From Bryoerythrophyllum caledonicum (lineage: Eukaryota > Streptophyta > Bryopsida > Pottiales > Pottiaceae): 64,000 nucleotides of DNA. The position numbers and the translations under genes are program-made. Every line of letters begins with the position of its first letter. Position 1 is the first letter of the stretch. The notes beneath the pieces are model-generated. The model saw only the letters and a list, made by a program, of their open reading frames with translations. It did no database searches and was not told the origin of the DNA. Shown in pieces: positions 5,395 through 63,157 of the stretch. Location of the stretch: NCBI GenBank assembly GCA_963971425.1, contig OZ020519.1:5658028-5722027 (forward strand), written 5' to 3'.

Positions 5395-5830
5395 TAACTC
5401 CTAAAAACAAAGACAATTTCACACTAAAAATACTTCAAAACTGATGTTTCTAGTGCAATGAGTAAGGAGGGAATCAAAAACTTTTACGTTTACGTTTGAC
5501 CGTAGGATCTCAAATAAGACTTACTGAGTTACATACTTGCAAAAATTTCACAAACTTTGACCGCACGGATTGAAAGATTACAGTGCTTGAAGTAGAGAAG
5601 ACGGTTCATTTTCTTCCCTGTGTTGAGTGGGATCATACTTTGACTTCACTTGGTGTCAAATTTTTGCACTACACAAGGGTCAAAGTTAACTACCATCATG
5701 TAGAGCATGAAATTAGTTCCTACCACACCGATTTCTAGAGGTAAATTAGGGGTGTAGCATATTCAAAACAATTGTGCAAGGAGTGGAGGTATAAATATTG
5801 TCAATTCACGTCATTAATTTTTTTGTAAAG
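5395..5830 (+). repeat. Partial copy of the TTAA MITE family
   Basis: The sequence from about 5395 matches the plus-oriented copy at 13411-14361, with CTAGTGCAATGAGTAAGG, GACCGCACGGATTGAAAG and GTGCAAGGAGTGGAGG in the same order. Compared with copy A at 3489-4439 it is inverted, so the two flank about 1 kb as inverted repeats. The left TTAA end is degraded (ATAACTCCTAAA) and the right half is missing. Confidence 0.6.
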
Positions 5831-11293: not shown

Positions 11294-11486
11294 TTTATTT
11301 TTAATATTACAAGTGGGTGGAAGGTTCTCCATTCCAATTTTCAATTCTCTTATTGGATTATATTTTGTCATAATGCAATATTCCTTTTAGAAGAAGAAGA
11401 AGAACTCCGATCTCCAAAGGAGAGCGGCATGAATATAGTGTTTGTTCATTCACTTCACTAAGCAAATGGCCACGGGACATAGGCTA

Positions 11487-12439: not shown

Positions 12440-12671
12440 TAGTGTAATAGAAGTACTAACCCCTCTCGAGGGTAAACACTTTTCTACACTAATTGCCTTA
12501 GAGACAACCGACATGTCATCTCCCCGAAGGGCTTTGTAGGTCCCCATACAACAAGGCCTTGGGACCCCCCACCATAATTGGGTGGACTGTGGTGGTAGGC
12601 ACCACGCCGGCAATAGGACTTGAACTCACAACCACTACACCAAGGCCGTGGTGCCTTTATATTCTTTTTAG

Positions 12672-13410: not shown

Positions 13411-14361
13411 TTAACCCCTAAATTTCCTTGACAATTTCACACCAAAAGCAATTCAAAACTATTCATTCTAGTGCAATGAGTAAGGAAGGAAACAAAAGAT
13501 TGCATTTCTAGTTTTAACCGTAGGATCTCATTAAACACTTGATACATAACAAACTCTCAACATTTGATCAACTTTGACCACACGGATTGATAGATTATAC
13601 TGTTTGAAGTAGAATCAATGGTTTGTTTTTATCACTGCATTGAGTGGATCAACAAACTTTGACTTCACTTGGTATCAATGTTTTGCACTACACAAGATCT
13701 AAATTTTATATCATCATGTTAATTGTGATATCAACTCCTTGTACACCAATTCTTAATGGTAAAAAGGGGTGTAGCATATTTTTTAAAATTGTGCAAGGAG
13801 TGGATGTCCAATAAGTGCCAATTCATGTTTCAATTTTTTTGGGAACAAAATATGTTTTAGAGTGATAGTACAAAGGGTTAACAAGAAGGTTTACACTATG
13901 TCTTGTAGTAGAAAAAATAAAAAATGAAAAATATGAAGATCTTAAAGTTTTATGTGGAAAAGAAGAAGTTCTGTGGTCCCTGGCTTGACAATGTGTATCA
14001 ATGTGTGAGAATCTTTGACTTGGGATGAAATGCATTTTTTCACTAAAGACAAGAAATGTTTTTTGACAATATAAAAGAAATAATATTACTTGCTAGTAAT
14101 GAAAATCTCAATTTTATTAGAGTGCCCTAGCAAATGTTTTTGGAGTTACCCGATGTGCCCGCACTCAACAATTTTTTCTTTACGATGGCATAACTCTTTT
14201 TTTACAAGTCCGATGAAAATAAAAATGATACTCTCATGTACCTTGCGACTTCTTGCATGTCCGTACAAAATTTCAAGAATTGCAAATATAAATTGCAACC
14301 ATGAGAACATGCCCGAGATTTGCAACAACCCACCTTGGGACTTGTTTCATTTACGGGTTAA
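13411..14361 (+). mobile_element. TTAA-flanked MITE, about 950-bp family, copy B
   Basis: Opens TTAACCCCTAAATTTCC and closes TTTACGGGTTAA, 951 bp including both TTAA. Copy A (3489-4439) has exactly the same length and is its inverted, diverged counterpart. The right third (14160-14350) is also found at 22340-22510 and as a fragment at 14700-14765. No transposase frame is present. Confidence 0.75.
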
Positions 14362-15952: not shown

Positions 15953-18900
15953 TCACATGCACGTGACGATGTCGACGTGAATGTCCTTGAGCAGTCCCAC
16001 GACCTGCTGCATGGTGGGCCGCTTGGCCGGGACCTCTGCAGTGCACAGGTACCCGATTCGGAGGCACTCCAGCATCTCGCTCTCGACGCCCGAGCTCAGG
16101 AGCTTATGATCCAAGCACTTGTAGCCACGCTTCTCCCGAACGAGGGTCCGCACCCACCCGACCAAGTTCCCACCGTAGCCTTCATGGAAGTACTGACCCG
16201 TGGGGCGTCTTCCTGTGACGAGCTCCAGGAGCACTACGCCGAAGCTGTAGACGTCCCCGCGGGAGCTCGCCTTCCAGGCCAGCCCGTACTCCGGCGGAAC
16301 GTACCCGGGCGCGCCGGCCAGGACGGGCTCCGTGACGGTGAGCTCGTTCATGTCGTAGTAGCGCGTGGCGGAATCCACCAGCGAGGCGAGGCCGCAATCC
16401 GCGAGGTGCGGCTCGTACTGCGCGTCCAGTAGGACGTTGCTGGAGGTCACGTCGCGGTGGACCACGTTCGGCACGCAGCCGTGGTGCAGGAACGCGAGCG
16501 CGCGCGCCAGGCCCACGGCGATCCGGTGGCGGATGGGCCAGCTCAGCTCCTCGCTCACCACGAACTTCTCCTCCGCGTCCGCCCAGGTCTCCTTCGTCCA
16601 GTTCTCCGGGTGGTGCGTCTCTGTGTGCACATGCAGAGAGTGGTCCCGTTAACTAGTGACTTCATGAATGAAAAGTATTCCACAAATGTCTGTTTCTTCA
16701 CTTTTTAACTGATTTTCCTATGAAATGAATCCTTGTGAATTCATACTATGTTTACTAGTTGTAGAGGGGTGAGTTTCCATGGTTCTCTAGACTGCTACAT
16801 TGCCGGAGATGCCTGCTATGACAACGCAGACAATGCAGTAGCTTGAGGGTGATCATGGAAACTCACTCTGATCCATTCTTGTACACACATCGTCCACCTA
16901 TCACCATCCTCATAACGTTCCATTATATCATAAGGGGTGATGTATTTTAGCATTTAACTCTACTTTGAAGTGAAGTAACAAGGTGAGTTAGCTTGGCATG
17001 GCTTGGGACTCAAAAGATTCTTCTCCAATTCCTCTATATGGGCGAGTTTCCACGATTACTTCCGAAGTGCTACATTGCTGTAGAATCACGCGCCTCCACA
17101 GCAATGCAGCAGTCTAGAGGTGACCGTGGAAGCTCACCCTAACAAATGAACTCTGACATTCATTTATTACCATTGAGCGAGCCTGGCTCCATGACTTCAT
17201 CTACATTTTCGCTAGTGACAGTTCACTCACAGGAATTCAACCAATGCATCAAATTCATAAGACCAGGATGTGTACCTTCCAGAGCGTCGTGAAGCCTGGT
17301 ATGCACGTCGCCGTTCTCCATGTGCTCGTAAACGAGGAGCCGCTCGTCCCCGACGAGACAGTACCCAACCAACGACACGAGATTCTCGTGCCGGATCTTC
17401 CCAATCCCCTCCAACTGCGCCGCTTTCTGCAGCTCGTTCGCAGGCCCACCATCATAGAGCACCTTCACCACAATCTGCAAGCCCCCGGGGAGCACCCCTT
17501 TGAAGCTGGGTCCATATCTGCCGTCCGCAATCTGCGAGTCTTTGTGAAACTTGGACGTCGCCTGGAGCAGATCCGCAAATGTTAAATTCAGCAGTGGTTT
17601 CTCGAACATGATCACGGGGATGGATGCGGGCTGCGGGACCTGGGACGCCCACCCGCTCGGATCCGCCTCGAACGTCACGGGGCCTGTCAGGTAACTGGAG
17701 TGTCGCTTGCGCGGCTTGTATATTTTTTTCCTGTGGAAGAGCAGATATGTGCTGAGGAAAGCACAGATGGCGAGCGTGCTTCCTATCACGATCGCAATGA
17801 CGGCGCCGGCTTGCAACGCGCCGGGAGCGTCCTGGTGCAGGATGGACGGGACAATGAAGCTGGACGGGGCCGGCGCTGCCACCAGCACGGGCGCGGGGCC
17901 GGGACCGGGGCCGGGCGACGCGCCAAGACACGCCCTGTTCACTGCAATGCCGCACAGAAGCGGATTACCCTCGAACGACCACTCCGGAAACTCCGTCCAG
18001 GGCACCACCCCGGTCAGATTATTATACGACAGATCCAACCTACTCAGCTTCAGGAGCGAGACAAGCTCCGTCGGGATCTCGCCAGTGAGTTTGTTATGCG
18101 ACAGGTCCAACCCCATGAGATTATTCGCCTGCGAAAGCTCCACGGGAATGCTGCCTGTCACGCGATTCTCCGACAAGTCTAGCTGCAGCAAGCTCTGGAG
18201 CTTCCCAACGGATCTAGGTATCGACCCCGTCACGTCACATGACGACAGGTTCAGGTACGTCATGTTGCCGAACTCGAACCCGGGAAGCGTTTCTGGAGTG
18301 AACTCATTCCGTGCCAAGTTCAAGTACTGCAGCGACTGATTCAGCGACCCAATGCTCTCCCATGGAATGCTACCGTTGAGGTGATTCGATGAAACGTCGA
18401 GCTTCCGCAGGGAATGCAAACCTGTGAACGTCGACGGGATGGCGCCAGTGAGGTTGTTACTCCTGAGGTCCATCTCCTGCAATGCACGCGTCACGTTCGA
18501 AGGGACGACTCCAGTGAACCGGTTCCTGGAGAGCCGCAGAATGGTCAGGTTCGGCGACGAGAGTAACGCCTCAGGGATGCTCCCAGTGAGGAAGTTAACA
18601 CTGCAATCTAGGAAACTGATCTGGTCGTTCCCCCACGAGAGGCTCCCTGTGAGGTCATTGTTGGCGACGTCGAGAGAGTACAAATACGGCAGCCCGGAGA
18701 TGTTCACGGGGAGGCTCCCGTTGAGGTGATTCGAGGAGAGATGGAGCTTTTGGAGCTGGCGCAAGTTGTAGAAGTCGGGGATGGGGCCCGAGAAGTCGTT
18801 GTGTGAGAGGTCCAGAGTGCGGATCTGGTACAGCCAGCCGAGCTCCTGGGGGATGGCTCCGGAGAGGGCGTTCCGGCTCAGGTTCACCGTTAGAAGCTCC

Positions 18901-19556
18901 TGGATATAGAAGGTGGTGGGCGCGACGCCGCCCGTGAAGGCGTTGGCGGAGAGATCGAGGTAGTGGAGGTACTTGTTGTAGGCGAGCGCCGGCATCGGCC
19001 CGGAGAAGTTGTTGCTGTGCAGGTCCAGTTTCTGGAGGTAGCGCATATTGGCCCCGAACGAGTCCGGGATGCGTCCACTGAAGGCGTTCGCCGAGAGGTC
19101 GAGCTCCAGGAGCTGGTGCAGGTTCACCCAATTGGGCATGCCCCCGGTGAACTTGTTGTGGGAGAGGACGAGGCGCACCAAGTTGGGAAATGTCCACACG
19201 TCCCATGGCACTTCGCCAGTGAGAAGATTGTACGAGAGGTCTAGGTGAGTCAAGGAAGTGAGCGCGCCCAGCGTCTTATACGGAATGGACCCGTTCAACC
19301 CCAATCCGATGAGCGAGAGGCTCTTGATCCGTTGCTGCGCGCCGAGGCCGATGCAGGAGACGCCCTGCCACTGGCATGTGGGAACGGAGAAATTGAAGGG
19401 GGACGGATACTCTGGGAGCGCACTCTTGAGGAAGGCGAAGAAGCGCTGCTCGTCATCGCGCAGCGTTTGCGCCGCCGTCCCGTGCAGGAGCAGGAGCGTC
19501 GTGACGAGCACCAGAGCGGCAACCCCTGTCATTGATCTCGGGTGCAGCCTGGTCAA
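15953..19556 (-). CDS. LRR receptor-like kinase, At2g24230-like (LRR-VII type)
   Basis: Two coding exons, 19556-17276 and 16620-15953, join in phase (GAA-G/AG) to give 982 aa. Residues 1-29 form a signal peptide. About 18-20 leucine-rich repeats (80-520) follow a CQWQGVSC cap, then a Pro/Gly-rich linker (545-580), a transmembrane helix (582-607) and a cytoplasmic kinase domain. The linker after LLVYEHMENGD, including ENWTKETW, and the end MQQVVGLLKDI match the Arabidopsis At2g24230 group. Lys698 (VVKVL) is present, but the glycine loop is irregular (GRYGPSFKG), the catalytic loop reads HRDVTSSN (usual Lys now Thr) and DFG reads DCG. Such kinases sit in the plasma membrane; the ligand is unknown. 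Weak or pseudokinase activity is possible. Family call is firm; the start could be the second Met at residue 9. Confidence 0.9.
16767..16870. repeat. Foldback 1 in the receptor-kinase intron
   Basis: About 104 bp with imperfect complementary arms. GTGAGTTTCCATG at the left pairs with CATGGAAACTCAC at the right, and the inner arms pair around CTACATTG and CAATGCAG. It resembles a second foldback at 17040-17140. It could be a small MITE or a hairpin RNA precursor. Confidence 0.7.
17040..17140. repeat. Foldback 2 in the receptor-kinase intron
   Basis: About 101 bp whose 42-nt arms pair with roughly 12 mismatches: GAGTTTCCACG pairs with CGTGGAAGCTC (one G-T), and CATTGCTGT pairs with ACAGCAATG. 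Sequence and length match foldback 1, about 270 bp away in the same 655-bp intron. Confidence 0.7.
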
Positions 19557-20350
19557 TCGGAAAGAGCTAGAATATGTTTCTCTTCAGGGGAAGGCTTGTG
19601 GAAATAAATGTAGGTCCTGAATGGTGGAACATTGAAACTGAACCTGGCATTGACTGTCTTCCATTTCGAAGACTCATTCCTCCACGAGGTCACGTTCCTC
19701 ATCCCTCACGCTCTGTGTGCCCGGGGTCTATCAACTAGGGTCCAGTCATGTGTAAGCTCCTGCATCACCGTTAAGAAAGAACAGTCAGAAATTCTAGAGC
19801 ATACAGCTCTCAACATATTCGGTACGAAGACTAGCGCGTGCTTTGCTTATGGGACTATGCCAACTCTACAGATACACCTGACATACTGAAACTACTGGTG
19901 AACGCGAGCGTGATATCTGCCACCATTTTGGCGATGACATTGGCAAATCCTTGGATGCACCAGTATTGCGACATGAGAGAAAATCCCTGCAGCAAACCTG
20001 ATCCCACCTCTAGAGATATCTGCGAATGACATACTGGAACTACTTGCGAACACTCAAATAATATTCTTAATGCCAGGTGATTTTTCCCGAGGAAGTGATC
20101 CGCCTCAGTGATTCTACCACGCCGTGACCATCTTGGCGAATCCTTGGATGCAACCACTATATAACTTGAAACCCTGACCTGATCCCATGACACCCTGAAA
20201 CTATTCGCGAAATGCTCTGGAAATATGCGAGTTGTCTCAACGCGGGGGTGAGACGCCACGGTGATTCTATTGAATGCCACCATCTTCATACAACTGGAAG
20301 ATTCACACTAAGTTGGATTCCCAGGGTCTTTGCACCGCGACTAGATTACC
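19557..20350. repeat. Upstream region of the receptor kinase with a tandem repeat
   Basis: From about 19880 to 20230 a unit of 150-160 bp repeats roughly two and a half times. Landmarks are GAAACTACTGGTGAAC (19889), GGAACTACTTGCGAAC (20036) and GAAACTATTCGCGAAA (20198), and also CAAATCCTTGGATGCA (19946) with CGAATCCTTGGATGCA (20137). The array lies 330-680 bp upstream of the start codon, so it may affect the promoter. No convincing gene is present. Confidence 0.55.
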
Positions 20351-31200: not shown

Positions 31201-32944
31201 CACATACTGCATAGATGCCAAGTCATACCTGCTGTGGTGGAATTCTCTCAAGCAACTGATCGCATAGAGCAAGGCTTTGTTCAATGACTTGAGGCTCCTC
31301 CCACTGCATTAGCTGAACATGCAGTCTGGCAGTTGCAAACACCATCTGCTAAATTGAAACGTTGTAAATTACAAGTTTCATACCCCTCATTCTGTAAAAA
31401 AACAAGTATGAAAGAGAAAACAAACAATGACTAAAATACTGGGACAATGTGCTCTCGAGAAGCGCTTGTACCTGAGGGATGCACCGCTACGCAAAAAACA
31501 AACAAAAAGAGTGCATACTTCTACGTTGCAGATGCCAAGCTTTGGTGACAAACAGAAAACATGATAGGAAATGATAGCCTATGATGCAACGGGCAATTTG
31601 ATTGATGAAGAACCGACCTCAAGCTGGGGCTTACTCATGGCCGATGCCAACTTCGAGGCGCTTTCCAACACTCGTAATGCGCCAGGATAGTCACTTTCAC
31701 TTGTGAGAGCTTTCGCAAGTTGCAAACTGAAGTTGCAAGCCCACAGTCGCCCCGCATCACTGCCAAAAGAGGCGTTCTCAGGAGCGTGCAAACGAGTCGG
31801 CCACAAGTCATACTACATCAAAAATCTGAACCGCGGTTGATGCGCAAGAACAGAATACAAGCCAGTCCCTCTCTCTCTCTCCCTCTGTAGAATGACGGAA
31901 ATCTTACAGTCAAGGCCTTCAGTGAAACACATACCCGGTCGCTGCGTTCGTGGAAAGCTCTAATCCCTTCCTCAAAGTCTGCTTCACGGCAGCAAGGGTG
32001 CCTACCAGTTGATAACATCGACTCAACAAACTAAGAGCTCGAAACTTCAGCTCAAAACAAGTAGGAATCTGTTTCAGTAACAATTGCTGCAGCCAAGGCC
32101 AAAAACAAATCCTGTCACTTCTTCGCTTGCATGAAAACCAAATTATTCTCTCTACTAAGATATCAAAATCCAAACACTATTTTCGCTACCCTAACGGGGT
32201 TCCCTAATATCATCGACAATCCGAGGTGCCGTTTCTCAACGTAAAAACTAGCTACCGTATGCATACTCCATTAAATCAATAACCTACAATCAACCCGTCC
32301 AAGAATTAACAAAGGTGTTTCCCCCTAAACTACAGATCAGCAAACTTAAGAATCCTGCAACCTAATTTCCAGGTTCTAATCCCTCTTAACTCTAATATCA
32401 CTCACAGAAACTTCCAGACGCAGCGCTAACCACTCTGCAATTCATCTCCACTCTCGGTGCCCACATTCCGAAGCTCCATAGAACCAAAACGAAGATCGTT
32501 TCCCTGAACAAAAATTCAGCAGCACAAAAACTCCTTCAACTAAATCAACAAGCCTCCAGCCTAAGTTCCAAGCTTCCAATCCCTCTTAACTCAAAAATCA
32601 CTCACAAAAACCTTCAGACGCGTCCCAAACACTCTGCATTCCACCTCCACTCTCAATTGCCAACTCCCGAAGCTCGTATTCCTAACGATAACAACACCAA
32701 AACTCCTCCGATTCACGAGTCTCAAACCTACCGCGCGCTCCAGATGCGCCTTGGCGTGCGTGACGTTGTCCGTGTGCTGCAGAAGCAGCGTGGCGATGCG
32801 CAGGCGCGTCTTGACCTCGATCACGGGCAGGAACGACACCTGACTCTGGCAGATGGCCTCCAAGCACTTGACCGCCTGCGCGATGCAGCCGCCTCGCTCG
32901 TGCTGCTCCGCCAGCTGCCACAGCCCCTCCGCTATCGACTCCAT
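28226..32944 (-). CDS. MAU2/SCC4 cohesin-loading factor (at least 13 coding exons; 3' end unresolved)
   Basis: Exons are 32944-32732, 32086-31935, 31759-31618, 31345-31229, 30999-30692, 30515-30325, 30151-30113, 29860-29739, 29574-29428, 29203-29114, 28900-28776, 28682-28477 and 28356-28226. All are GT-AG and in phase, giving 661 aa before the tail. MESIAEGLWQLAEQHE, VKCLEAICQSQVSF, RPKGMFKDC, GVYLLLLTQLLENK, YAHSMGCF and LGNHQLVSQYLTVLGSLA follow the order of plant MAU2/SCC4 (Arabidopsis At5g51340). The protein is TPR-like and, with SCC2, loads cohesin onto chromatin in the nucleus. Exon 7 is a 36-39-nt microexon with two possible acceptors. Translation past 28226 would stop at 28154; otherwise a further exon is needed. 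The upstream in-frame Met at 33172 was rejected because homology starts at MESIAEG. Confidence 0.9.
32340..32685. repeat. Tandem duplication inside intron 1 of the MAU2/SCC4 gene
   Basis: A unit of 200 bp occurs twice. CCCTCTTAAC at 32381 recurs at 32581, and CACTCTGCAATTC with CATTCCGAAGCTC recur in order as CACTCTGCATTCC and CAACTCCCGAAGCTC. Divergence is perhaps 15-20 percent, so the duplication is not recent. Confidence 0.75.
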
Positions 32945-33172
32945 CGCCACAAACACTCCGTAGAGGAAGAAAACTGTCCCCGCAACCCTACATGGTCTCC
33001 GCTCTGTTTCAATTGCCACACAATCTGTCGAAAGCTCTCTCCACCGCGGTTGTGGCTGTGGCCATGGCGATGGCGATGGTGTCTGCGAGGGAAACCCTAA
33101 TTCATGGAAGGGAGCTTCACAGCTTCTGCTTGTTTCGTGAACGAGGCTCACTTTGAGTTCAACACAGTTCAA

Positions 33173-33692
33173 ACCAATTCCCTCACAAAATTAAGACACG
33201 ATGCAAGGTAGGACAAAGTAATGTTTTAACATCACTTAGGAGCATTTTACATTCTTCCATCAACCAGATTTTGGTCGCCCCGACGTTTAAGGGTTAACCC
33301 TGAAGGACCCAGGCATTTCAGAAGAATCTCTTCTCTATTCATTATTAACTACTGGATGAACTTTTTGAGAATGCAAATGTAGGACCTTCTTCTAGACTTA
33401 CATGAAATAATGTGGTAAATTTTTGTGAATTTTGATTGTACGGATCAAAAGAGGATTGCAGTGAAAGTGAAAAAAATTGTGCCCTACACGGACACTTGGT
33501 CCTTTGGGGGCTATTTTTGTATAATTCCCCGATTTTAGCGATGTGATGTGGTCTTTCATTACACCGCTTGTGAATTCATTGGTCGTTAGCACACAAATTT
33601 TGTTTTGGATATTAGGAATTGAAAGTATTCAAATGCCTTCATGTCATGACACCCACCACTACATTGATTGTAAAATTTGAGAAGTCATTACA
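33173..33692. other. Upstream flank of the MAU2/SCC4 gene with a degraded TTAA MITE
   Basis: TTAACCCTGAAGGACCC at 33294-33310 and CACTTGGTCCTTTGGGGGCT at 33492-33511 look like the two ends of a short TTAA-type element of about 220 bp whose right TTAA is lost. The block CCGTACAATCAAAATTC (reverse strand) between them is shared with the larger family. It lies 350-570 bp upstream of the start codon. Confidence 0.5.
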
Positions 33693-33704
33693 TCCATGAA
33701 AACA

Positions 33705-33796
33705 GTCCGGTGGGCATGGTCTTAGCAATGGAACGAACAGACACTTTATTCACGCCGGTTCCCTTTGGGAATCGGCGTTCTTCTTCTTCTTCTTCT
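33705..33796 (+). mobile_element. Very short LINE/SINE 3'-end insertion with 12-bp target-site duplication
   Basis: TCCATGAAAACA is repeated exactly at 33693-33704 and 33797-33808. Between the copies lie only about 92 bp of the family 3' end: a region like GGTGGGCATGG, then a 10-bp stem (GCCGGTTCCC with GGGAATCGGC, loop TTT) and a (TTC)n tail. This is a severely 5'-truncated retrotransposition product. Confidence 0.9.
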
Positions 33797-33939
33797 TCCA
33801 TGAAAACAAACTTTGAAAAACTGGAATGAAGAAGGTGATAACGGTTATGAAATTACACAAGCAAGTAGAATGCAAGGCCATGTCAAGCCCACAAATTCAC
33901 CTATTGTCATTACAGTATAATCCTCATCACTATACTCTG

Positions 33940-35600
33940 GAAGAAGAAGAGAACTCCAGTCCCCAAAAGGCCCGGTGTGAATAAGTGTCTATTTGTTCCA
34001 CCGCTAAGTCCGTGTCCACCAGACATGGGTTAGTAGTATGGAACTACTTCCCCCTCTTGAGCGCAATTCACACTCTGTAACACATAACAAGTAACTAAGA
34101 ACCTAGAACTAATGCCACCAAATAAGACTTATGAAAAGAAGAGTTTAGCAAGTTTTCATGGGGGTCTAGCGTGTCCTTTTAACGGGTTCGTTGTTTTTAA
34201 GTTTCCTTTGTGTAGGAGTACGGGCATAGCATGTTGGATTACAATAGTGTTAATATTTGTAAATGTGGTCTTGATCGAGGCCATGGGGATTTTGAATGTT
34301 TCTTCAAGATTGTCATTGAGGGAATAAAGGTGGTGGCTCTAGCACCCACGGTAATGACAATGAGTGGGGTCTACTTTCCATTTTAGTGCTTAAATATTGA
34401 GGACTGAGTGGTATTTATTTATTTTGTTTGCAATAGCTTCCAGTGAAAATCTATCATTACAATATTTGAATTCAATAAATTGAATTATGAGATTTGGGTC
34501 TATATGGGTTGGTGGGAGGTCTTTGTATAGTAGCCCTACTATGTGTAACCTACTATGATTTAACACATAGTAGGTCGGGTTTAAATCTTGCATTACAATG
34601 GCATCTTTGAGTACCACATGTGCATGGTAAGAGCCACGGGGGAACCATACTTTTTTGCGGATTGTCGTTAAAGGTTCCGGCATTCATGAGGATGAAGCAA
34701 CAAGATTTGTTTGATGACACAATTAGTTTTTGGATTGCCCACACCGCTTTGTTGTGGCGTTTGACAATTGTGGCGGAATGTATATGGGGGTTTTGGCATT
34801 TGAGTAAAACATGTAGCCACGTATCCGGGTCTGTAGTGTTGCACATGTGATGGAGGGAAATTCTTCTATGTATTGTCCGGTGCGGAATTTGACTAGGCAT
34901 TGTTTTTGTGAGTTTGTAATTATAGGGTTTTTCCAAAAGTTGGTGGATAGTTCATTGTCAAGGATTGGATTACCGGTCCATTTAACAATGTTAGGGAATT
35001 TTTCCACAAGTCTTTCCAAATTATTTTTGAGGTCGTGTTTTTTGAGGTATGTATCTAAGAATCTTATGGGACCTTTGTGTCGAGGGTTTCTTCCATAGAG
35101 GTCCAATCATATCTATGAAAGTAGTATGGGGTAGCATAGGCATATTTATAGGGGTGTTTGGCATCTTAGTAGGCTTTATGTCTACCTTCTTTTGCTATTT
35201 TGTCAGCTTGTTCGTTGTCGTCGATATTAGCGTGAACTCTAACTTTATAAAGTGTGGTGATTGGTGTGCAATTTTGGAGCATTCGACCATGGATGTTAGG
35301 ATAGCTTGGTTCGGGTGACTATTGTGTAGAGTGGGTTGATTTATGTGTATATTTAGAAGGTACAATATATTGATGCAATCCGTGAAAATGTGTGCCGGTT
35401 TGTTAGGGTATTGCATGGTAATTATCTCAAGGGTTTTATGGATAGCTGTCATTATGCCTCTATTAATATTTTTGAGTCGTGTAGTCTTTTGGCTAGTCTA
35501 TTTCTTTTGGTAGGGTTGCATATTCAGCAATCAGCTTTTGCTGGGTGCCAATATCCTGGGCTTACTTTAGTTGGTTCTTTGAAGTAACCGATGGTATAAT
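33940..35600 (-). mobile_element. LINE copy with RNase H and zinc-knuckle region (decayed)
   Basis: Minus-strand frames 35452-35195, 35106-34723, 34936-34553 and 34683-34390 overlap in different phases and together follow the LINE copy at about 60200-63157. They contain an RNase H core (HIFTDCINILYLL), RFLDTYLKKHDLKNNLE, WKNPIITNSQKQCLVKF, then WLHVLLKCQNPHIH of a zinc-knuckle-like end. Several frameshifts have destroyed it. The 3' end at 33940-33985 (minus strand) has the family stem-loop and TTC tail. The 5' boundary is not defined; the target-site duplication could not be found. Confidence 0.75.
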
Positions 35601-36900
35601 AACTAAAGTTGGGGTCAAATTTTAGAGATGTGTGAGTTTGGTAGTCGGGAAGTGGAGGAGTTGGAGTGGTTAGTGGTGTCAAGTTGTTTATAGAAGGAGT
35701 TTTGGACCATTATTTATTGCGGTTTACACGGGTTAGTCTGGATGTAGGTGGAGCAGTTGCGATATATTCATTATTGATGTTGAGATTTTTTGCAATAAGT
35801 GTGATGCCACGGGACGTGGCGTCAAGGGCCTCTCCGTATCGTAGTTTTAGCGTAGATTAGTTTGTTACTAATCTACGGGTGTTTAGGATCAAATGGCGGC
35901 CAACTGCATTTATCCGTGGATGATTTCCATCCACGTAGGGTTGTATGCGTGTGCGTATAGCACCGCACACGTCCTTGACTTTACGTCTTTGTTAAGTCAA
36001 GTTTTGTGAGTGAGTTAGAGAGTATTAGTGATTATCTTTGCTTGTAAGTGATTGTTTATCATTAGCAAAGGCTCCGCATTCTCCTACACTACTTGGACTC
36101 ATTGATTCCCCCTTTGTGGAGTGCGAGACGCTTGACTTGTGAGTGATTTCATACTTGTTCACTTGACAAAGACCTCCCCACATATCCTTCTTTAGCTATG
36201 AAATTAGAGCTTAGAAAGATGAATTTTTTGTGGGTATTTAAATTGATGTTGTAGTGAGCGTTTAGATGAGTCCAAACCAACAAACAGCCCTTGATTTGTA
36301 CATTTTTGGAAGAAATTGCGGGCGGTGAAAGTTTGGAGTGAAGAAGGACAACTGCTGGACTTGCTGCCGACAACTTTATCCATTATTCCAATTTTCATCC
36401 GTCGGTCAACTATTCATCTATCATACAATTTTTCATTCATTGGACGATTTTTCAACCACGGTCGCAATTTTTATCCACTGTGAATGAAACTATAATTTTG
36501 GGAGATTCATTTAAGTGTGAGTTGATACTTTCCAAAATAATTGCTATTTTTGGATTTTGACTTTAGACTTCAGCTTCTTCAAGGGATTTCTTCCTAGAAT
36601 GAACGAGAAGCTTTTTCAAAAACCACACTTTTGTGAGTGAATTTTAAAAAAAATAAATTAGTCTAATCTTTGAAGTTCATTTGTGGAGGCAATTTAGCTC
36701 AGGTTTGAGCAAAATTTGCGCTTACTTTAAGTGAAATTTGTCAAAGAATCCATTAGAATAATTGAATTGGCATCTCTAGTTGATCTTCAGCCCTAAATGA
36801 TGATTTTTAAGGGCTGAATTGTGTTTTTAAACACCAACTTCTATAAATTTCCATAGAACTTCAAGTTTTGAGACTTGGTGAAACACTTTCGAGTGTTTCT
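35601..36900. other. Unassigned sequence between the LINE and the gypsy element
   Basis: It may contain the 5' part of the LINE and the 5' LTR or leader of the gypsy element. No LTR match to the far side of the gypsy copy was found by eye, and no gene is recognised. Confidence 0.3.
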
Positions 36901-39900
36901 CTTTGATTTGTAGATTTGCGACTCGGGCCATCCATTGCAGGTGTGTGTCAGTGGCTCTGACCCCTTGTCTTTTCTGCTTTTAGGCTGTTGGGGGAGAAGT
37001 TCCAGTTTTGATTTGTGGACTATTGTGCAATACCTCCCCCGTGTTGCGGGCTTGTTGTCGGTGTTTTCTGATGGCCCTATCTCTTGTTATAGTAGATCGT
37101 GATAGGGTACTGTAGAGGTGAAGTCGGCTTTATGGCTGGCAAGACCTTTCTATGTGGGGGGTTGTGGTTGGACACGTGCTAGCTGTAGGTGATGACCAGT
37201 GAACCACAAAGTTTGGTGGTTTTGTAGGTGCAAGTTGCCCGTTCGTACCTTTACCCTTTAGGTAGTACCCGTAGATAGGTCTAGAGGTGGTTGTTGTTTG
37301 TGGGGAGTACACAGAGTCGGTATTACCGCTTTTCCTCACCAGATCACTTGGAGAGTGCTTCCTCCATAGACTTTGGGCCAAGGTCAGATACCGACGAGGC
37401 TTTTGAGCCTGTTTCGGCGTTGGATACAATCCATAGGCTTTGGGTCTGGGGCGTGGGCACGTTTGACGACATGGAGGATGATCTCCGTCATGTCGTGCGA
37501 GACAGGTTCTCGGGGCGAGCTGGGGGCATCTCCCTGCCCGATTGGCGGCTCTGATTCCAAGCTTGGATAAAAGAGAAGCGCTAGCGGACGCCGTCGTTTA
37601 AAGATTGATATGCATTTGAACTCTTGCCCCAATATTTAGAGCTCGATGCCCTTCAATCATACGAGCACCGGACCACGCAGCATGACGCACAGTTGGGCCC
37701 CGTTGAGGAATATTGGCTCCAGCGCGTGGAGTTGGTAATTGTACTCAAGGAGAGTGCGGTTGCCCAACCCTCGACTTCCACTGGAGAGCCCAAGGCGGAA
37801 GAGGGTTTCTTCGTTGACGACTCTAGGTGCAAGGGCATTGCCGTTGTGGCCAAACGGTCTGACATAGGGGCCATGTCAGGTTTGGCCGTGGCAACACGTG
37901 CGGCATTGATGGCGGTTAGCAATCCGATCAGCGTTCGATCCTTTGGCGCAATTCATAGTGCACTTGGAGGTGGAGTATAGGGGATTCAAGCGTGATAAGA
38001 TGTAGCGCATCTAGGATTTCCGCCAGAGAAAGACGATACCCCTCGCACTATGTATACCCGGTTGGCACCATTGTCAGGAGAGACCGGTGATATATTCACA
38101 AAGCGCTAGCTGGTGAAGATCTTCATTTCCAGGATGGACAAGCGGATGATAGAGTTGATTAGTCGACATCTTCTTTTCTGATACCATGGCAACGCCACTT
38201 TGGCGCAAGCGTTTGTCGAGGTGGAGGCGCTTGATAGAGCGTTGGACGTGAGTGAGGCCACGGATTTGGTCACGGCGCTAATGGACGCTCCTAAACCCAT
38301 GAAGCTTGCCACGGCGACCGGTAGCTTGGCGGAAGCAAAACTTGAAAAGGTTGTTTTGTTGGGCTTGTGGGGTGGCGGGTCATACCAAGAAGGACCTGAA
38401 TTGCTCCAAGAAGATGGGGGCAAGCACCGTGAAGACCAAACCAAAGATTGAGGCGACCAAGACTATAGAGAAGGTTGGACGCAAGGAGAAGAAGGCTGCG
38501 ACATGCTCTCACTCTAGCAAGTCGGACTACAATAGTGAGAACTGTTTTGCTCTTCACCCAGAGAAAAGCCCAGGTTCTTCAGTTGCTATATCGAATGTTG
38601 TAAAGAAACTTCACGCCAAAATGGCGGAGCTGAAGAAGTAGATGAGCACAATGGCTTCTTTAGAGCAAGTGACCGACACACAACCTCCGGTGAGGGATTA
38701 GGGATCACCTTCAGCCTTAAATTGCTATTTGTATGGCGCTTCAGGGGAGGTGGTGGCAGCAGCGGCTACTCATGCTAAATCTATCACACAAGCGGTGGCA
38801 CCTTCTTCTTCTCTAGCCGGGGGTAGTGGCCGTCCACGCCACATAGGTTTGGCGGACAACATTGGTCAGTCCTGAATACCTTTTTTGTATAGCATCGCGG
38901 ATGAGGCGACTTCTACTGCTACTCCGACTTCGACCTTGATCCCACTGGTTTCTTCTAGTTGTAGAGATGCTACACAGACCTTGGCGTATAAGGTGTTGCG
39001 GTTGCCGGTGTTTGCCAGTGTAGACTTTCTGATACCAGATTTTCAATCATCCGGTGAATTCCATTTAGCCAGTAGTATATTGCAGGGCAAGGTGCCCATG
39101 CCATCGTTGGAGGTGTCGCAAGCACTAATGGCTCCATCCACCGGGGAGGATTTGGTGGCAATGCGGACAAAGTTGGCGGTAGAGGCTATTTCCGCGTTTA
39201 AAGCCAATGCCACTTCTACACCTATGGAGCAGTCCTCCGGCGATCAGTCTTTGATTTCTAGAGTGGCTTATTTGTCTGACATTGCAGCCCGGTCGACACA
39301 GGAGCAACACATTGTGCGTCGAGGGATGGTACGCTTGGTAAACGATGACGGAGTCATGGTGGTTGGTCATACGGACGGCAACCCCACCCGAGCTACCCTC
39401 CTCCATGATATGTTGGATTTCGGAGCTTAGCCAGTGATGATTGACAAGCAGCTAGCCCAAGATTTTGATCTAGGTGCTTCGGACCTCGAGCCTTGCCCGT
39501 TTACGATTGTTGCATCGCTCGGGGGTACTGAGAAGGCCATGGGCTACACTCAACATCCGTTGTAGTTGATGTTCGGCGTGGCATCCGGTCCTTTGTTCTC
39601 CCACGTATCTCTCCACTACGTTGTGACTCGCACCACCAACTACTATATTTTGGTGGGTCTGTAGACGCTTTATCTACTTGGTTTCGAGATAGATAATTGG
39701 ACGGAGGAGGCCTGGATTAGGCCTGGGTGGTCTGCCGGTGATGGCATAAATGAGCTCATTTCGGTTGTCTTCGCAATTAGCACCATAGCTTCCACGGCGG
39801 ACGCTATGTTCGAGTGCACTACTTTGGCATCCAATTTGCCATGTGGTTCTACGCTTTTGGAGGGGACATATGCTTTTATGTCAAAGGTAGCGGAATCACG

Positions 39901-42900
39901 TGAGCGTAGATTAGTGGAGGACCCTACATGTCATCGCAAGGATCACTTCCTCTTTAGGGAACTGAGTTGGAGCTCATACTTCACAGTCGGGAGATTAAGG
40001 ACGCTATTTATGCTCCACAACTCTCAGTGGACTCTTCCACTCAGTTGTTGGCTCGCACTATTCAATGGCGACCACCAAATGACGGTATTAGCCTTGTAGA
40101 GTTAGTTGCCGGTATTGATACGGGGCTTGTGGCTGTGTTAGAGGCAAGACTTAAGGTATGACAATACATCCATGTTGATAGTGGCTTTGCAGCCAACCGT
40201 GCCGCTCATCATCACATTCAACGTCTTCTAGCGTCGTATCTGAAGCAATTACCATCTTCTGCTATTCGCGGGTGTTTTGGCAAGTTGCCACGTGATGTGA
40301 TGTTGATCGGTGAGGATGATCTTCGCCGGTTAGGTCACGTGGACTTGGTGATTGCCAGATGGCCTTGGCAATGCCATTTATGGGTTAGCAGTGGGCGCGG
40401 CTTGGATGATCCACGATCAAGTCTCTTTGTGGATTTGCTCAGGCTTATCCAATGGTGGATTACCAACCAATCGACGTCGCCGGAATACATTTCTGAGAAT
40501 GTACTCCCATTGGAAGATACACGGACAAAGGTGCGTGAAGATGGGGCATACATCCATCACCTTTTTGGTCCCTTCTACGTTTGTTGATGTCGGGCATGTG
40601 GTCCGGGCATGGTTTGGAATTCTTCTTCCCAAACTTACGAAGAGCCTTCTCCCTATGAGAGGGAGCGGGCGATGGGCCTTTTGATAGGCACCACCGCCAC
40701 ACCGGATCTCTCTAAGGGCCAACGTCGTTATTTGTTGGGTCAAGCCATTGACCTCAACACCCTCGTTTAAGTTTGTGGCCTCTGTTTTGCAATTCAGTGC
40801 CATTTGAGTGACCATCCACGCGTGCTCGGCGCAGACTCAGATGGGCAAGGGGCAACGGTGCCACATCTCACAGAGATTGAGACAACATAGTTGTTTTTTT
40901 GTTAAAAGAAGGATATAGTTGAGGAGCTTCGTGCAGAGCGGGTCTTTGCAGCCTTGGGCGAGGACTTTGGGGGAGGGGATGCGCGGTATATCTTTGCCCG
41001 GTTTTATCATGACAACGCGAGATCTTCTGTGGATCTCGTGAGTGAGGAGTCCGGGGGCATCAATGCCCTCTTTGCTACCAAGTAGCACTCACCGTCCATG
41101 TTGGTATGCGGTGAGTCTTCTACGGTGGAGAAAGAGACCATTGAGTTTGATGATTGGCCTTTGGATTTGGGGTCACATTATGCCGGTGCCGAGGCACGGA
41201 AGATACGAGCGTTTATACGTTTGTATCGTAGTTGTTTTGCGTTTTGTCTCCATGATTTGGAGGGTTACAGAGGCAAACCAATACACATCGAGTTGGAAGA
41301 CAACCACCCGATCTTTCGACGACCGTACAAGCTCAGTCTCTTTGAGAAAGTTGGGGTCAGACTCGTTGTCAGTAGTTGTTGGCCGCCAACTTGATTGAGC
41401 TCTCTAACGGCGAGTACGCTTGTGCCACAATTATGCCATTAATGAAGGATATCTTTGGCAACTGGACAAAGAAGCAAATGTGTGGGGATTACAGGCCGGT
41501 CAATCGCAAGACCAAATCGGACCAATATCCCATGCCCACGCCGGAGGGGTTGTTTCATGATGTAGGCCACCCTATAGTATTTGGTACTCAAGATTTGCGG
41601 TCTAGTTGTCACCAGTTACCATTCATGGTGGATGCCCGAGTAAAGACTGCATTTTGGAGATTTGATCGGGATGGGAAAATATCAACTCTATCATTAAAAG
41701 TTTTTCTCATTTTGCCTAAAAAATGCACCCGCTGAGTTTTAGAGGGTAATGGATCGGGTGTTGATAAGTTTACCGTTTGTCTATTGCTACATTGATGATT
41801 TTATGATTTTAAGCAGCAGCCCATAGGAGCATGTGAGGCATCTTTAGGTGGTGTTCGAGAGGTTACGGTAGTTAGGATTGCGCTTGCACTATGGCAAGTG
41901 CAAGTTCTTCTACAATTGATTGCCATATTTGGGACATATGATTGTTCTAGGGGGTCTTGGTGTGCAGCAGGCCAAGGTGCATGCGTTATAGAAGATTCTT
42001 GCCTCAATCGACGTGTCACGGCTGTGAGCTTTTTTTGGCTTGGCAAATTACGATCACTGGTTTGTCATGAACTTTAGTCTGATTGCTAAGCCATTGACTA
42101 TTTCCACGGAAAAAGGATCAACCATGGACTTGGGGACAGGAGCGGCAATAGGCATTTGCTACTTTAAAGCTGAAGCTCGGTTCAGCGCGTGTGTTGCGGC
42201 GTTCAAATGCTACACAATCCATTCAGTTACATACAAACTCAAGTGCTGTGGAATTGGAGGTTGTGTTAACTTAGAAGGATGATGAGGGACGGGAGTACAT
42301 TGTGGCATTTGCTTCTAGGAGCAATAACAACGCGGAATCCAACTATTTGTCATATGATGAGGAGGCCTTGGCCGGGTTTAAGCCATAGCCCATTTTAGGC
42401 CCTATTTATATGGGCAACAATTTACGTTGATGCCCGACCATCAGCCTTTGAAGTGGCTTATGGAATCTGACAAGCTTACTAGCAAGCTCGCCAGGTGGAC
42501 TTTGTTACTTTAGAAGTATGACTTTGAGGTTGTACATCGGGCCGACATCACGAACTTGGATGCAGATGGTCTATCTTGCAATCCAAGTCCTTCGGAGGAG
42601 GATTTGATTGGTGTCAAGTGGCATGGGGACTATGACAGGGAGTTAGTCCCGGGGTGGTATACAACGGCTTACCTCACGCTGATGTGTAGCTCCACCTGGA
42701 TGTTGCCTAATTTGGCAATGGATGAGGAACTGGATAGGACCCAAGTTGTTAGCGATGTGTGGAAAGACGGTCCAGTCTTGCACAAGCTGGAACATAAGAC
42801 ATTTCTTCATGCTCTTTCTACTATGGAGCGTGATCGAGGTACGCACCGAATAGCAAGTTTTTGTTGGATGAACGAGCTTCTATTATGGGTGTAGCTAGAA

Positions 42901-46348: not shown

Positions 46349-47286
46349 TTAACCCCTAAGTTTCCAAGAGTCTCCTCAAGGGACTCTAGCAGGTTTGAGC
46401 AAGTTCGTATGGTGTCATTTAATAACATTTTTCTTTGAAATATTTATTGTAGTTGGACATTACTAAAAGCTTTGTGTTAGTTCAATTTTTTTCCTAAATC
46501 CGACAATTTATGAAAAAGTTATAGGGTTTTGAAGTTCAAATGGGGAGAGTGGGCAAGTCGGGCAACTCTAAATTTTTTGCTAGGACACTCTATTGAATGT
46601 GAGATTTCCTATACTTGCTAATAATATTATATCCTTTCATATTGTCAAAAAATCTCTTGGCTTTGGTGAAAAAAGGCATATAAATCCAAGTCAAACATTT
46701 TCACACATTATTGTACATTGTCGGGCAAGGTATCAAAAAAAATCTTCTTTTCACATAAAACTCCGAGATCATGATATTTTTTACTTTTATTTTTTCCGCA
46801 GCATTATGTGGTGTAAACATTTTTATTGACCATTCAAATTCTCATTCTAAAACATACTAAGTTCACAAAAAATTACAACGCAAATTGACAATTTCCAACC
46901 TCCACTCCTTCCACAATTTTTTTGAATATGCTACATAATTTTTCTATTTGGAGTACAAGTAGCTAATATCATGTTTAACATGATGGTAATGAATTTAGAC
47001 CTTATGTAGTAAAAAAATTTGACACCAAGTGAAGTCAAAGTCTGCTGATCTACTAAACGCAAGGAAGAAAATGGACCCTTTTAACTACTTCAAACACTAT
47101 AATATTACAATCCGTGCAGTCATACTTTATGAAATTTTTAATGTGAGTTACTTTATGAGTCTTAATTGAGATCCTACGATTAAAATTAGAAGTAAAAGTT
47201 TTTTGTTTCGTCCTTACTCATTGCGCTAGAACGAGCAGCTTTGAAGTGTTTTTGGTGTGAAATTATCGTAGAAATCTAGGGGTTAA
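46349..47286 (-). mobile_element. TTAA-flanked MITE, about 950-bp family, copy C
   Basis: Opens TTAACCCCTAAG and closes TCTAGGGGTTAA, with TTAA at both junctions, 938 bp. It is collinear with copy A at 3489-4439: a GGGGAGAGTGGGCA motif, then the TGTGAGATTTCCTATACTTGC region, then the GTTCACAAAAAATTAC block. No coding capacity. Confidence 0.75.
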
Positions 47287-48553
47287 ACATAAAGAACACA
47301 AAAACTTGCTCGCCCCTTATCTTTTGATTAGATTAGAAGAAAGGTGGTCAACATTCAAGATGATAACATTTCCAACTTTGAAATGACTTAATAGGGTACC
47401 TTTGTGCCCTTAAGGGCAATATGTGATTAGTTCCTATAAACTCAATTTAGAAGATATAATTTTGAAATTTTTACTTAGAATAGAAATGTAGGATATCGTT
47501 GCCGAGATTTTTATTTTTCTGCAGTCATTGGAAAAAAATTGTGCTTCAAATATAAAAACCTCCACTGCAACTAGTACGGACCATGGAGCTATACATTACT
47601 ATTGTACGGTTTATAATAGGAATTTTTTCATGTGGATAGCAGAGAATTAGAGGTTTCAACAACCCTCAATGTTTCTACTTCAAAATGTATACACATCATG
47701 GATTTGGTGTGTTATGCAAAAACTATTTTTTTCCGACTACTACATGAAGGTCTGTTACATTCATTGGTTGTTTCATTTGTAGGTCAAACATTACATTACT
47801 TTCTCGACACACCACTATTTACAGTCCTAAAAAAAATACATTGCACAACATCTTTGACTTTCCTAGGTTGCACAAGTCCTAAACAAACGATGCAACACTA
47901 AAAACTAGTATGTGCTACAGTAGTTCACAAGAAATGAAGAAATGATGGTAACTAAGGGGAGTTTTGGAGTTCGTTGGATTGAGTAACAAAAAATTGGCAG
48001 CAAGTAGCAGCGGGTGGAAGTAGGCGGTGGCCATTGCCACGGTAGTTGTGACCTTAGATTACCATCTATTGCTCTCAACCTCCAACCAATGACTCGACCG
48101 TGGGGTGGACCCCCCGCGGATGTCCCCATGCTATCCAGCCAAGCTAATGTCTCCAAATGGAGATGCTCTTAATAAACTTTAAAAACTTATAGCTCATGAG
48201 TTTCACAAGATATGAAAAATATAATATTATACAAAATTACAAACAAAACCTCGAAAGGACCATAACCATTATTTGTACACAATAAAAAAGAATCCCCAGT
48301 TAATCTGATGTAATTTAGCCTCAACCCTCTTGGAGGTTAAAGGTCCATGTAGGACAATCCAAAACCGACCAACAAACCAATACCGTTCCTTTCTATACCC
48401 TTCCTAGATTGTCGGGAGGAAACAAAGCTAGTCTTTACTTGACTTGTGCATTAACCTATGAAATTTTAAGTGATGTGATGACCGGCTACATATCTTCTCT
48501 GAAATCTACCAAGAATATAGAAGGGAGTGGTATTGGATCGTTGGTTTGGTCTT
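47287..48553. other. AT-rich intergenic with MITE debris
   Basis: No gene is seen. A TGGAGATGCTCTTAA end at 48160-48174 resembles the termini of the element at 56967-57406. Confidence 0.4.
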
Positions 48554-48564
48554 AGGTTGTCCTA

Positions 48565-48914
48565 AAGCACCACAGCCTTGGTGTAGTGGTTTGGGTCACA
48601 GCACACCGGTGAGGTGGTTGTGAGTTCAAGTCCTATTGCCGGCGTGGTGCCTACCACCATAGTCCACCCAATTATGGTGGGGGTCCCAAGGCCTCGTTGT
48701 ATGGGGACCCACAAAGCCCTTGGAGGAGATGACATGTCGGTTGTCTCTAAGGTAATTAGTGTAGGGAAGCACTTAGTCTAGAAAAGTGTTTACCCTCAAG
48801 AGGGAGGAGTAGTTCTATTACACTAGCCTATGTCCCGTGGCCATATGCTTAGTGAAGAGAAGAACAAACACTATATTCACGCCGGTCTCCTTCGGAGACC
48901 GAAGTTCTTCTTCT
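48565..48914 (+). mobile_element. Intact tRNA-like SINE with LINE-type 3' end
   Basis: An 11-bp target-site duplication, AGGTTGTCCTA, flanks 350 bp (48554-48564 and 48915-48925). The head contains TGGTGTAGTGG, matching the Pol III A-box consensus, and GTTCAAGTC, matching the B box, about 45 bp apart. The 3' end has an 8-bp stem (CGGTCTCC with GGAGACCG, loop TTC) and a TTC tail, the same arrangement as the LINE copies at 2720-3142 and 33940-35600. It is non-coding; mobilisation would depend on the partner LINE's reverse transcriptase. Confidence 0.9.
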
Positions 48915-48925
48915 AGGTTGTCCTA

Positions 48926-60199: not shown

Positions 60200-63157
60200 A
60201 AAAATGCCTACCTTCGATGATTAGAGGAACAACTTCAAAATGCACTTAACGTCAAAGGTAGACTTGGAAAAATTTACAAAGGACTCATCCACTCTATTCT
60301 CGCCAAATATGGTGATACTAAAAACATTTTTAGAATAAACAAAGCGGATTGCATTAGATCACCAATCAGCCGAACACTTTATCTACCAAAAAATGAAGCA
60401 AAAGTTTATTTAACAGGTGCTTTCATAGATTTCCCTTTAGAGCCCTGACCTTTGGTACAAATGTGGCTACAGAAAACCCAGAATGACACGAGAATCAACC
60501 AACACCTCTCCCAAAAACTCTTACAAAAACTCTATCAGTAAATATTACCGATCTAAAATAACACTATCAAATGGAACACACATTATGAACCACAATGACT
60601 TCAAAATATGGCATGCTATACCATTCAAAATGTTGAAAGCACTCTTAATATTGCTCAACAACTATTTTGCTACCTCCCATGCCTAATACATGTGCCTCAC
60701 CATGCTCTACATATCCTAGTCCCCACACACTTAGAGACACATATGTCATCACCAACAATAGCATCCATTCCAGAATCAACCCCCCACTAATTCACCTCCC
60801 TCACCCGCCGCACCCTTATTTTCTTCCTCCCACAACATATATCCCCAAAAACCCGTCCACATATCCTATAGATCTTATTTTTGACCATAAACACAGAAAA
60901 CATATTGATTCAAACAAAATTATAAAGAATGATACCAAATATTTATGCCAATGACAACAAAAGAATTATTCCTACACCAAATGGATACCTCAACGAAACC
61001 TCTTTCCATGGCATGACCAAAGCACCTCCATCCATAACTCCATACAATTAATACGATACTATCAAAATACCCAAAGCAAATTTTACTCAAAAATCATTTA
61101 AACACATCATCCAGATTCCCCAAGAACAACCCTGCAACTCGAGATCCGTTATCCCACCCATAGTCATTCTTCTCCTCAATATACACACAACTAAATGCAA
61201 CCCCAAAAAAGATATTCTCACATCAAACAATACAATAAAAATTAATGAAAATCATGCACATATATACCATGACAATGGGAGACATCTAATCACTATTCCT
61301 ATCAGTAGACTCCAATGGCTTTGGAACCAATATCACAACAAACTACAAACTCCAATAAACATAGACCTAATAACTTAACCATTCAAAACTAAAATAGTCT
61401 CGTTATACCAAAGATATAAATACCACATCCCAAAAACTGACCACCTCAAACTCATCCAATATACATTACCCACACCCATTCTAAACTCGCTAATCTCATC
61501 CTTCAACATCCAACACTTGTACTTCTCATCGCCCGTTACATGCTCTATTCAACTCACTAAATTCCATTCACCTTTTGAAAGAGACAAAAATTTTGCTTAC
61601 TAAAAAATGCCTTTGACCATAAATGGATTGGAAATGGTATCGCTCACCTCCACACCAAAGAAGAAACGCAACAAGCAATACATTGGCCAAGACTTGCGGC
61701 CAAAAATAATCCAATATACACCTCCAGAGTCCACTCTTATTATCACACTAGATACGAACTGGTACCAAAATTTTAACCCACACTCAGCCTATTCCCAAAC
61801 TCTCACATCATTGTGTTACTCAAAGCAGACTCGATACCATATGAAGGACCCGCTCTCCCACCTGAACTAATATATAAACCAAGGATCAAGCCATCTACCA
61901 TGCAAATAATATGCATACATCATCAAAACAATACAATCGATATCATAGAACAACTTATCACACTCACCTCCATCTCAATTAAACTCAACATATGCCGGTT
62001 CTATACAAAAATAGCCCCACCTACTCCTTCCCAAACCCCGGTAAATAGAAACAAAATATGGCTCCAACTTGAATATGCAAACACAACACAAATCCAACAC
62101 GATACACCACCCTCCTTCCCCTCATATTGTGACCATACCGCTTAAAAATTTGATCCGGCATATAATTACTACACAAATGTTTCCTTCAAAGAACCAACAA
62201 AAGTCAACCCAAGACATCGGCATAGAGAAAAAGCTGGATATGGCATATACAACTCAAACAAAAAAATAAAAGATCCAAAAGACTACATGGACTACAAAAT
62301 ATCTTCAAAGCAGAATTGATAGCTCTCCATAAAACCCTACAAATTATCACTACACAATATGCTAATGAACCCGTACATATCTTTACAGATTGTATAAACG
62401 TCTTATATTTATCAAACACACAAATAACACACCCTATCCTCTACAATAGCCACCCCAACCAAGCCATACTAACATCCATGGTTCAAATGCTACAAAATTG
62501 CACACAACTCACAACCCTCTATAAAGTTAAAGCACATGTCAACATAGATGGAAACAAACAAACTGATAAACTAGCTAAAGAAGGACTAAGTAAATTCCAT
62601 AGAATTGCCAAATACCCGCATGAACATGCCCACGCTACTCCATACTACCTCCAACGAGAAAGTTGGTCCTTTATCAAAGACTCCCCAGATAAAGGCTCCA
62701 TTAGATTTCTAGATAAATATCTCAAAAAACAAGATTTAATTAACAACCTTGATCTAATCTCAGAAAGTCTCCCTAACATAAATAAATGGTCCGGTAATAA
62801 CAATATTGATAATGAACTTTCAATAAACTTTTGGAAAAATCTAACAATTACATACTCACAAAAAACATGCCTTCTCAAATTTTGTATTGAACAATATATG
62901 GAAAATGCTCACAAACAACTCTTCTTTGGGATTGAAAGATTCCCATCCATAACATGCCCCATATGCACCTCCACGGATCCGGACAAATGGCTACACATAC
63001 TCTTTAAATGCCAAAACCATCACATACACTTCCTAATCGTCAAAAGATACAACAAAGCAATATGAGAATTCTGAAAATTAATTATTTTCTCAAACAAATT
63101 CTGATGCTTTATACTAATGAATGTTGGAATCCTCAACAATAATCCACAAGAAAATAC
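60200..63157 (+). mobile_element. LINE copy with RNase H domain, interrupted at its 3' end
   Basis: The longest frame, 62316-63065 (249 aa), carries an RNase H core: a catalytic Asp in FTDCINVLYL, then VKAHVNIDGNKQTDKLAKEG with the typical His and Asp. It ends in a zinc-knuckle-like CPICT...WLHILFKC...H. A frameshift near 62270 separates it from the preceding part. Upstream frames (60667-62145) have several stops and no clear reverse transcriptase motif, so the copy is decayed and its 5' limit is approximate. It matches the minus-strand copy at 33940-35600. It ends abruptly at 63157, where a CACTA element begins, so its TTC tail is not seen. Confidence 0.7.

Follow-up and report, generated by a model that had tools for sequence, protein, structure and literature searches.

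The element at positions 48565–48913 of a 64,000-nucleotide stretch of Bryoerythrophyllum caledonicum DNA (hereafter the window) is very probably a non-autonomous SINE that is copied by LINE machinery through a shared 3' tail that is predicted to fold. We observed a SINE family, target-site duplications (TSDs) around its copies, SINE–LINE homology restricted to the tail, and 5'-truncated LINE insertions carrying the same tail. At the level of sequence comparison, the observed pattern supports a SINE/LINE pair with stringent recognition of the 3' end.

The SINE in the window and its genomic family

The window copy (copy 1) is a full-length element of 349 bp on the + strand (48565–48913), delimited by genome matches, an eight-locus alignment and an exact 12-bp TSD (TAGGTTGTCCTA) at 48553–48564 on the 5' side and 48914–48925 on the 3' side. 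The original prediction had described an 11-bp duplication and a SINE ending at 48914; an exact duplication is indeed present, but its length is 12 bp, and base 48914 is the first base of its 3' copy, so that the SINE ends at 48913. The element comprises a SINE-specific head and body of 220 nt (48565–48784, + strand), which matches neither LINE copy, and a LINE-derived 3' tail (48785–48913, + strand) with a predicted multi-helix RNA fold, a 3' hairpin and TTC repeats. The 3' stem-loop and TTC tail initially proposed for this SINE are both present.

Within the head, an A-box-like motif TGGTGTAGTGG (48579–48589, + strand) and a B-box-like motif GAGTTCAAGTCC (48622–48633, + strand) were read off the sequence by comparison with the box consensus, with a start-to-start spacing of 43 bp. 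ARAGORN found no tRNA in the 64-kb window, an Rfam scan of one SINE copy (L006, E up to 10) returned a chance-level miRNA match only and no tRNA, and Rfam at gathering score gave nothing over the whole window. The designation "tRNA-like SINE" is accordingly a tentative one that draws on the A- and B-box-like motifs, with no tRNA match from ARAGORN in the window or Rfam on L006 behind it.

The genome (437 Mb, 894 contigs) was searched by DNA, and the best 40 of 3774 first-look candidates were scored. Near-full-length matches numbered 40 at 94–100% identity, the window copy included, and the same table of the best 40 of 3774 candidates held three partial matches at 76–92%. Since the scored matches are the best ones, they overstate the typical identity, and typical copies may be more diverged. 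Eight aligned loci (L001, the window copy, to L008) start with (A/G)GCACCAC and end with GTTCTTCTTC, and they diverge by 3.4–5.2% (mean 4.3%, 28 pairs), a range that comes from a set biased towards best matches. The family is thus short, non-coding, dispersed and multi-copy and is flanked by TSDs, which score clearly for six of the nine copies examined. Three SINE copies on contig C9 (20415977–20461697) lie at a spacing of exactly 22,687 bp, and this even spacing probably reflects a tandem segmental duplication of about 22.7 kb.

A second copy in the window (copy 2; 11389–12658, − strand; TSD CTAAAA(A/G)GAATAT) is split by another element at 11484–12442 and is 88–89% identical to copy 1 in its main pieces. 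The ends of the insert are inverted repeats of about 40 bp with 92.5% identity, and these inverted ends are of the ACACTAAA type. By eye, copy 2 is missing the portion of the head that two GTGGTT direct repeats enclose.

Target-site duplications

TSDs were scored by script in nine SINE copies (the eight loci and window copy 2), with 72 swapped-flank pairs as control. The results showed a score of at least 9 in 6 of the 9 copies (L001, L003, L004, L006, L007 and copy 2), while a single swapped-flank pair of 72 scored at least 8, namely 9. The threshold was missed by L002 (TSD 6/7, score 4), L005 (score −4) and L008 (TSD 10/12, score 6); at L005, TGGGACTA(T/C)TT can be seen by eye on both flanks, beyond the slack of the script. 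Clear TSDs of the SINE and LINE copies measured 12–15 bp.

LINE copies in the window

LINE copy a (2720–3142, − strand) is a 5'-truncated insertion flanked by a 13-bp TSD (TTCCTGAAATTCA; 2707–2719 and 3143–3155). It starts within an open frame that ends in ALNPPP and a stop codon, followed by a short 3' UTR, the shared tail and TTC repeats. LINE copy b (33940–35600, − strand) combines homology to the RNase H region with the shared tail and has the same 3' layout as copy a; no TSD of at least 9 bp was found for it in 34300–40000. Copies a and b are 85% identical at the ORF end and 83% identical over most of the tail, whereas the intervening stretch 2839–2983 was left unaligned by BLAST, although a gapped local alignment spans it. 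Because the ORF end and tail are kept while BLAST leaves the stretch between them unaligned, the LINE, too, seems to keep its tail under constraint. A 92-bp 3' stub at 33705–33796 (+ strand) has the same 3' end and a 12-bp TSD (TCCATGAAAACA; 33693–33704 and 33797–33808), and it belongs to a tail-bearing element, either the LINE or the 5S-headed element described below.

A further LINE copy (62181–63154, + strand) contains an open frame at 62226–63065 with a Pfam RNase_H match (E 8.9e-9). The frame overlaps the LINE b homology, in which 34886–35587 matches 62181–62881 at 73% identity. No match to the shared 3' end turned up at this copy, the search with a tail covariance model included. Read by eye in this one copy, the frame contains KVKAHVNIDGNKQTDKL, an RNase H motif with H, and E, D, H and D stand at fitting places; the stretch where the first D would be expected is in a different frame, with the sequence YYTNVSF, and reads YYTIGYF in LINE b. 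Against NCBIfam, the frame matched the ribonuclease HI model with E 0.012, well short of its cut-off, and against PDB sequences it gave nothing at E up to 0.01. Additionally, Pfam assigned no family (E up to 0.1) to two stop-marked LINE fragments upstream of the RNase H frame.

Several other features were noted in the window. The stretch 3149–3276, which adjoins LINE copy a, has an end 78% identical to that of the insert in SINE copy 2, and by eye LINE copy a appears to be inserted into an element of the 11484–12442 type. A further dispersed repeat family (75–81% identity) occurs at 3544–4439, 46404–47286, 13411–14166 and 5412–5825. An LRR receptor-kinase-like frame is located at 17223–19583, and a Cohesin_load match at 32591–33190, both in keeping with plant DNA.

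Tail-only homology between SINE and LINE

BLAST aligned SINE positions 48785–48914 with LINE a at 74% identity over 130 bp and positions 48790–48914 with LINE b at 71% over 125 bp. In a control with 200 dinucleotide shuffles for each comparison, the LINE side consisting only of the 3' parts present in the window, the SINE tail scored 96 against LINE a (shuffle maximum 28) and 71 against LINE b (shuffle maximum 23). The 220-nt head scored 23 and 19 against the two LINE copies, with shuffle maxima of 30 for both. Observed scores were the better of two strands while shuffles used one strand, which leans against the head result, and this result was negative anyway. The only match to the SINE head within the window was SINE copy 2. 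An exact search with the tail pattern in viral and prokaryotic contig collections returned 0 and 0 stretches, which is uninformative for a plant element.

The claim that LINE copies with RNase H sequence or its downstream part bear the SINE 3' end thus agrees with tails that are 74% and 71% identical and score above all shuffles. The copies, compared with the 3' parts of the LINE, share a 3' end below unrelated heads, as in a SINE/LINE pair. The broader proposal of a partner LINE acting through a shared tail was also supported: similarity is limited to the tail, heads are unrelated, TTC repeats and TSDs occur on both elements, and the tail is predicted to form a structured RNA. At the level of copies, there is no sign of a shared stretch longer than the tail together with SINE copies that are all internal deletions of the LINE, nor of tails that fail to align.

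Predicted RNA fold of the tail

The LINE a tail was predicted to form a closed multi-helix structure with an outer stem AGTGTCC/GGACACT, a CCCTC/GGGGG hairpin and a long arm ending in CCATGCCC/GGGCATGG, followed by a 3' hairpin and then the TTC repeats. The outer stem of the SINE tail is AGTGTTT/AAACACT, with two double changes relative to LINE a. Folding z-scores were −5.64 for LINE a and −3.65 for the SINE, and 0 of 200 shuffles were as stable in either case. The LINE b tail alone gave a z-score of −1.98, with 11 of 200 shuffles as good and a different minimum-energy fold.

A hand-drawn structure of 39 pairs was scored on eight tails (three of them partial), the same sequences from which it had been drawn. 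On these eight tails, 89.6% of cells were paired, compared with 39–46% when the structure was slid. Changes on both sides were found in 5 of the 39 pairs (reached in 4 of 500 shuffles) and amounted to 8 cells (reached in 0 of 500), while further pair types showed no excess, with 383 of 500 shuffles reaching the count. Similarly, the first alignment gave five two-sided pairs (5/500 shuffles) and six cells (2/500) and no excess of further pair types (329/500). RNAalifold assigned this first alignment a covariation term of −0.03 kcal/mol and left out the outer stem. With tail sequences that are few and related, the fold is likely rather than proven, and these models lend partial support to a common fold of the SINE and LINE tails.

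Proposed mechanism and alternative explanations

The SINE would probably rely on RNA polymerase III for transcription, with the A/B-box head as promoter. Its RNA would be copied by the reverse transcriptase of the LINE lineage with the RNase H region, because it ends in the approximately 130-nt folded tail of that LINE plus TTC repeats. The LINE enzyme presumably binds the tail fold and would use the nicked target to prime synthesis at the TTC repeat, with insertion generating TSDs of about 12–15 bp.

We weighed three other explanations of the shared tail. Chance, or an effect of the TTC tract, might be suspected since some 10 nt of the tail under comparison are TTC repeat; the observed scores of 96 and 71, where 200 shuffles per comparison reached no more than 28 and 23, refute this, and we regard it as practically excluded. 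An internally deleted LINE, instead of a LINE tail joined to a head of separate origin, would also account for the common LINE 3' end and the common insertion type. The 220-nt head, however, did not rise above shuffles against either LINE copy and matched only SINE copy 2 in the window, and an internal deletion is therefore disfavoured and appears very improbable, as judged from the LINE 3' parts compared.

A closer question is which LINE serves as the partner. The SINE tail is only 71–74% identical to the LINE tails of the window, and the closest partner LINE may thus lie elsewhere. That the partner is a sister LINE family sharing this tail, rather than the family of 2720–3142 and 33940–35600, is a real possibility that we rate slightly below the alternative, and it would refine rather than contradict the best explanation. 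In its favour, the SINE tail differs by about 26% from LINE a while the eight best-match SINE copies are only about 4% apart, and several tail positions differ between all six SINE rows and both LINE rows. Against it, the tail model found no closer LINE in the window and the eight loci. Under either partner, the preferred explanation is that of a SINE mobilised by LINE machinery through the shared folded tail.

A 5S-headed element with the same tail

The tail covariance model was run over the window and the eight loci and produced 16 matches; E was below 1e-5 for 15 of them and 0.73 for the remaining one. Among the 15 strong matches, eight were members of the model and L001 repeated the window copy; the remaining six were the SINE copies at L003 and L004, two pieces of copy 2, the stub at 33705–33796 and a match at L002 (1211–1340, − strand). 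Upstream of the L002 tail lies a 5S rRNA at 1421–1303 (− strand; Rfam RF00001, 58.6 bits, gathering score 38). The resulting 5S-headed element spans approximately L002 1424–1206 (− strand) and starts about 80 bp downstream of the L002 SINE copy; in this one copy, it has the 5S rRNA head that characterises SINE3. Its best TSD, TGTC(T/A)AGGT, has a score of 6 and is outscored by the best swapped controls, and the ends of the element are therefore provisional.

With a second head joined to it, the tail may have undergone more than one capture. The L002 element could be a SINE3 of plants or else an isolated chimera. A one-off origin, in which template switching joined a 5S RNA to a LINE 3' end, is conceivable, though we lean somewhat away from it: a single copy was observed in the window and the eight loci, but its tail is 89% identical (65/73) to that of the stub, consistent with a family. 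The stub also matches LINE a (68/79), so that it does not demonstrate a family.

Comparison with known systems

In animals, the sharing of tails within SINE/LINE pairs is well established. In UnaL2-type recognition, a conserved 3' stem-loop is followed by short repeats. The tail described here likewise has a 3' stem-loop and short repeats, with a predicted fold that is larger. Tail sharing between SINE and LINE is a known kind of mechanism, and few plant pairs are on record. A 2013 review gives TGTAA repeats for UnaL2, counts three SINE/LINE pairs in flowering plants and contains five rows for Chlamydomonas (PMC3747384). Titles and abstract openings in the literature yielded no plant SINE3 and no TTC-tailed SINE/LINE pair, which is not proof of absence.

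The LINEs of plants fall into two superfamilies, L1 and RTE (PMC9033089), and one monocot L1 lineage has a conserved hairpin tail of 45 nt (PMC3747384). The pairs formed by maize/sorghum ZmSINE2 and maize ZmSINE3 with LINE1-1_ZM (L1 clade) resemble the present one in a hairpin 3' end common to SINE and LINE and in compensatory stem changes. As given in that review, however, ZmSINE2 and ZmSINE3 conserve the last 45 nt with one hairpin, in contrast to about 130 nt with several predicted helices here, and ZmSINE2 ends in poly(T) instead of TTC repeats (PMC3747384). The RNase H motif also differs, with R reported for plant L1 and H here (PMC4640811). In the archaeal-like RNase H of plant L1, R takes the place of H in the D-E-D-H-D set (PMC4640811); the H read here sets this RNase H apart from that type and is still compatible with other L1 types.

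The tobacco TS SINE and its RTE partner are likewise a plant pair whose repeat tail is not poly(A), but the RTE elements of flowering plants end in (TTG)n or (TTGATG)n (PMC3747384), whereas the tail here is TTC, unlike those RTEs. Chlamydomonas SINEX, paired there with RandI/Dualen or L1, offers a parallel in several SINEs per LINE group with tRNA or unknown heads (PMC3747384), and Dualen/RandI carry RNase H (PMC4640811), as does the present LINE. SINEX, however, is from a green alga, and its tails are (ATT)n, (CTTT)n or (A)n rather than TTC (PMC3747384). With its large tail and some covarying positions, the pair offers LINE and SINE sequences whose comparison can serve to map the recognised RNA.

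The L002 element, observed in one copy, resembles SINE3 in joining a 5S head to a LINE-tailed short element (PMC10886601). The same source presents the idea that Cassandra originated from a SINE3 insertion; Cassandra has LTRs, whereas none were noticed around the 5S-headed element (PMC10886601). Tentatively, and with rather less confidence than we have in the SINE/LINE pair itself, we suggest that the folded LINE tail of about 130 nt is a portable recognition module captured independently, within one plant genome, by two Pol III heads (box A/B and 5S rRNA), and that the LINE driving it has an RNase H other than the archaeal-like one of plant L1. The 5S-headed family would then represent SINE3 in plants, and it is from such elements that Cassandra has been proposed to derive its 5S sequence. 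If the 5S-headed relative is a family, the proposed SINE3 origin of plant Cassandra becomes testable.
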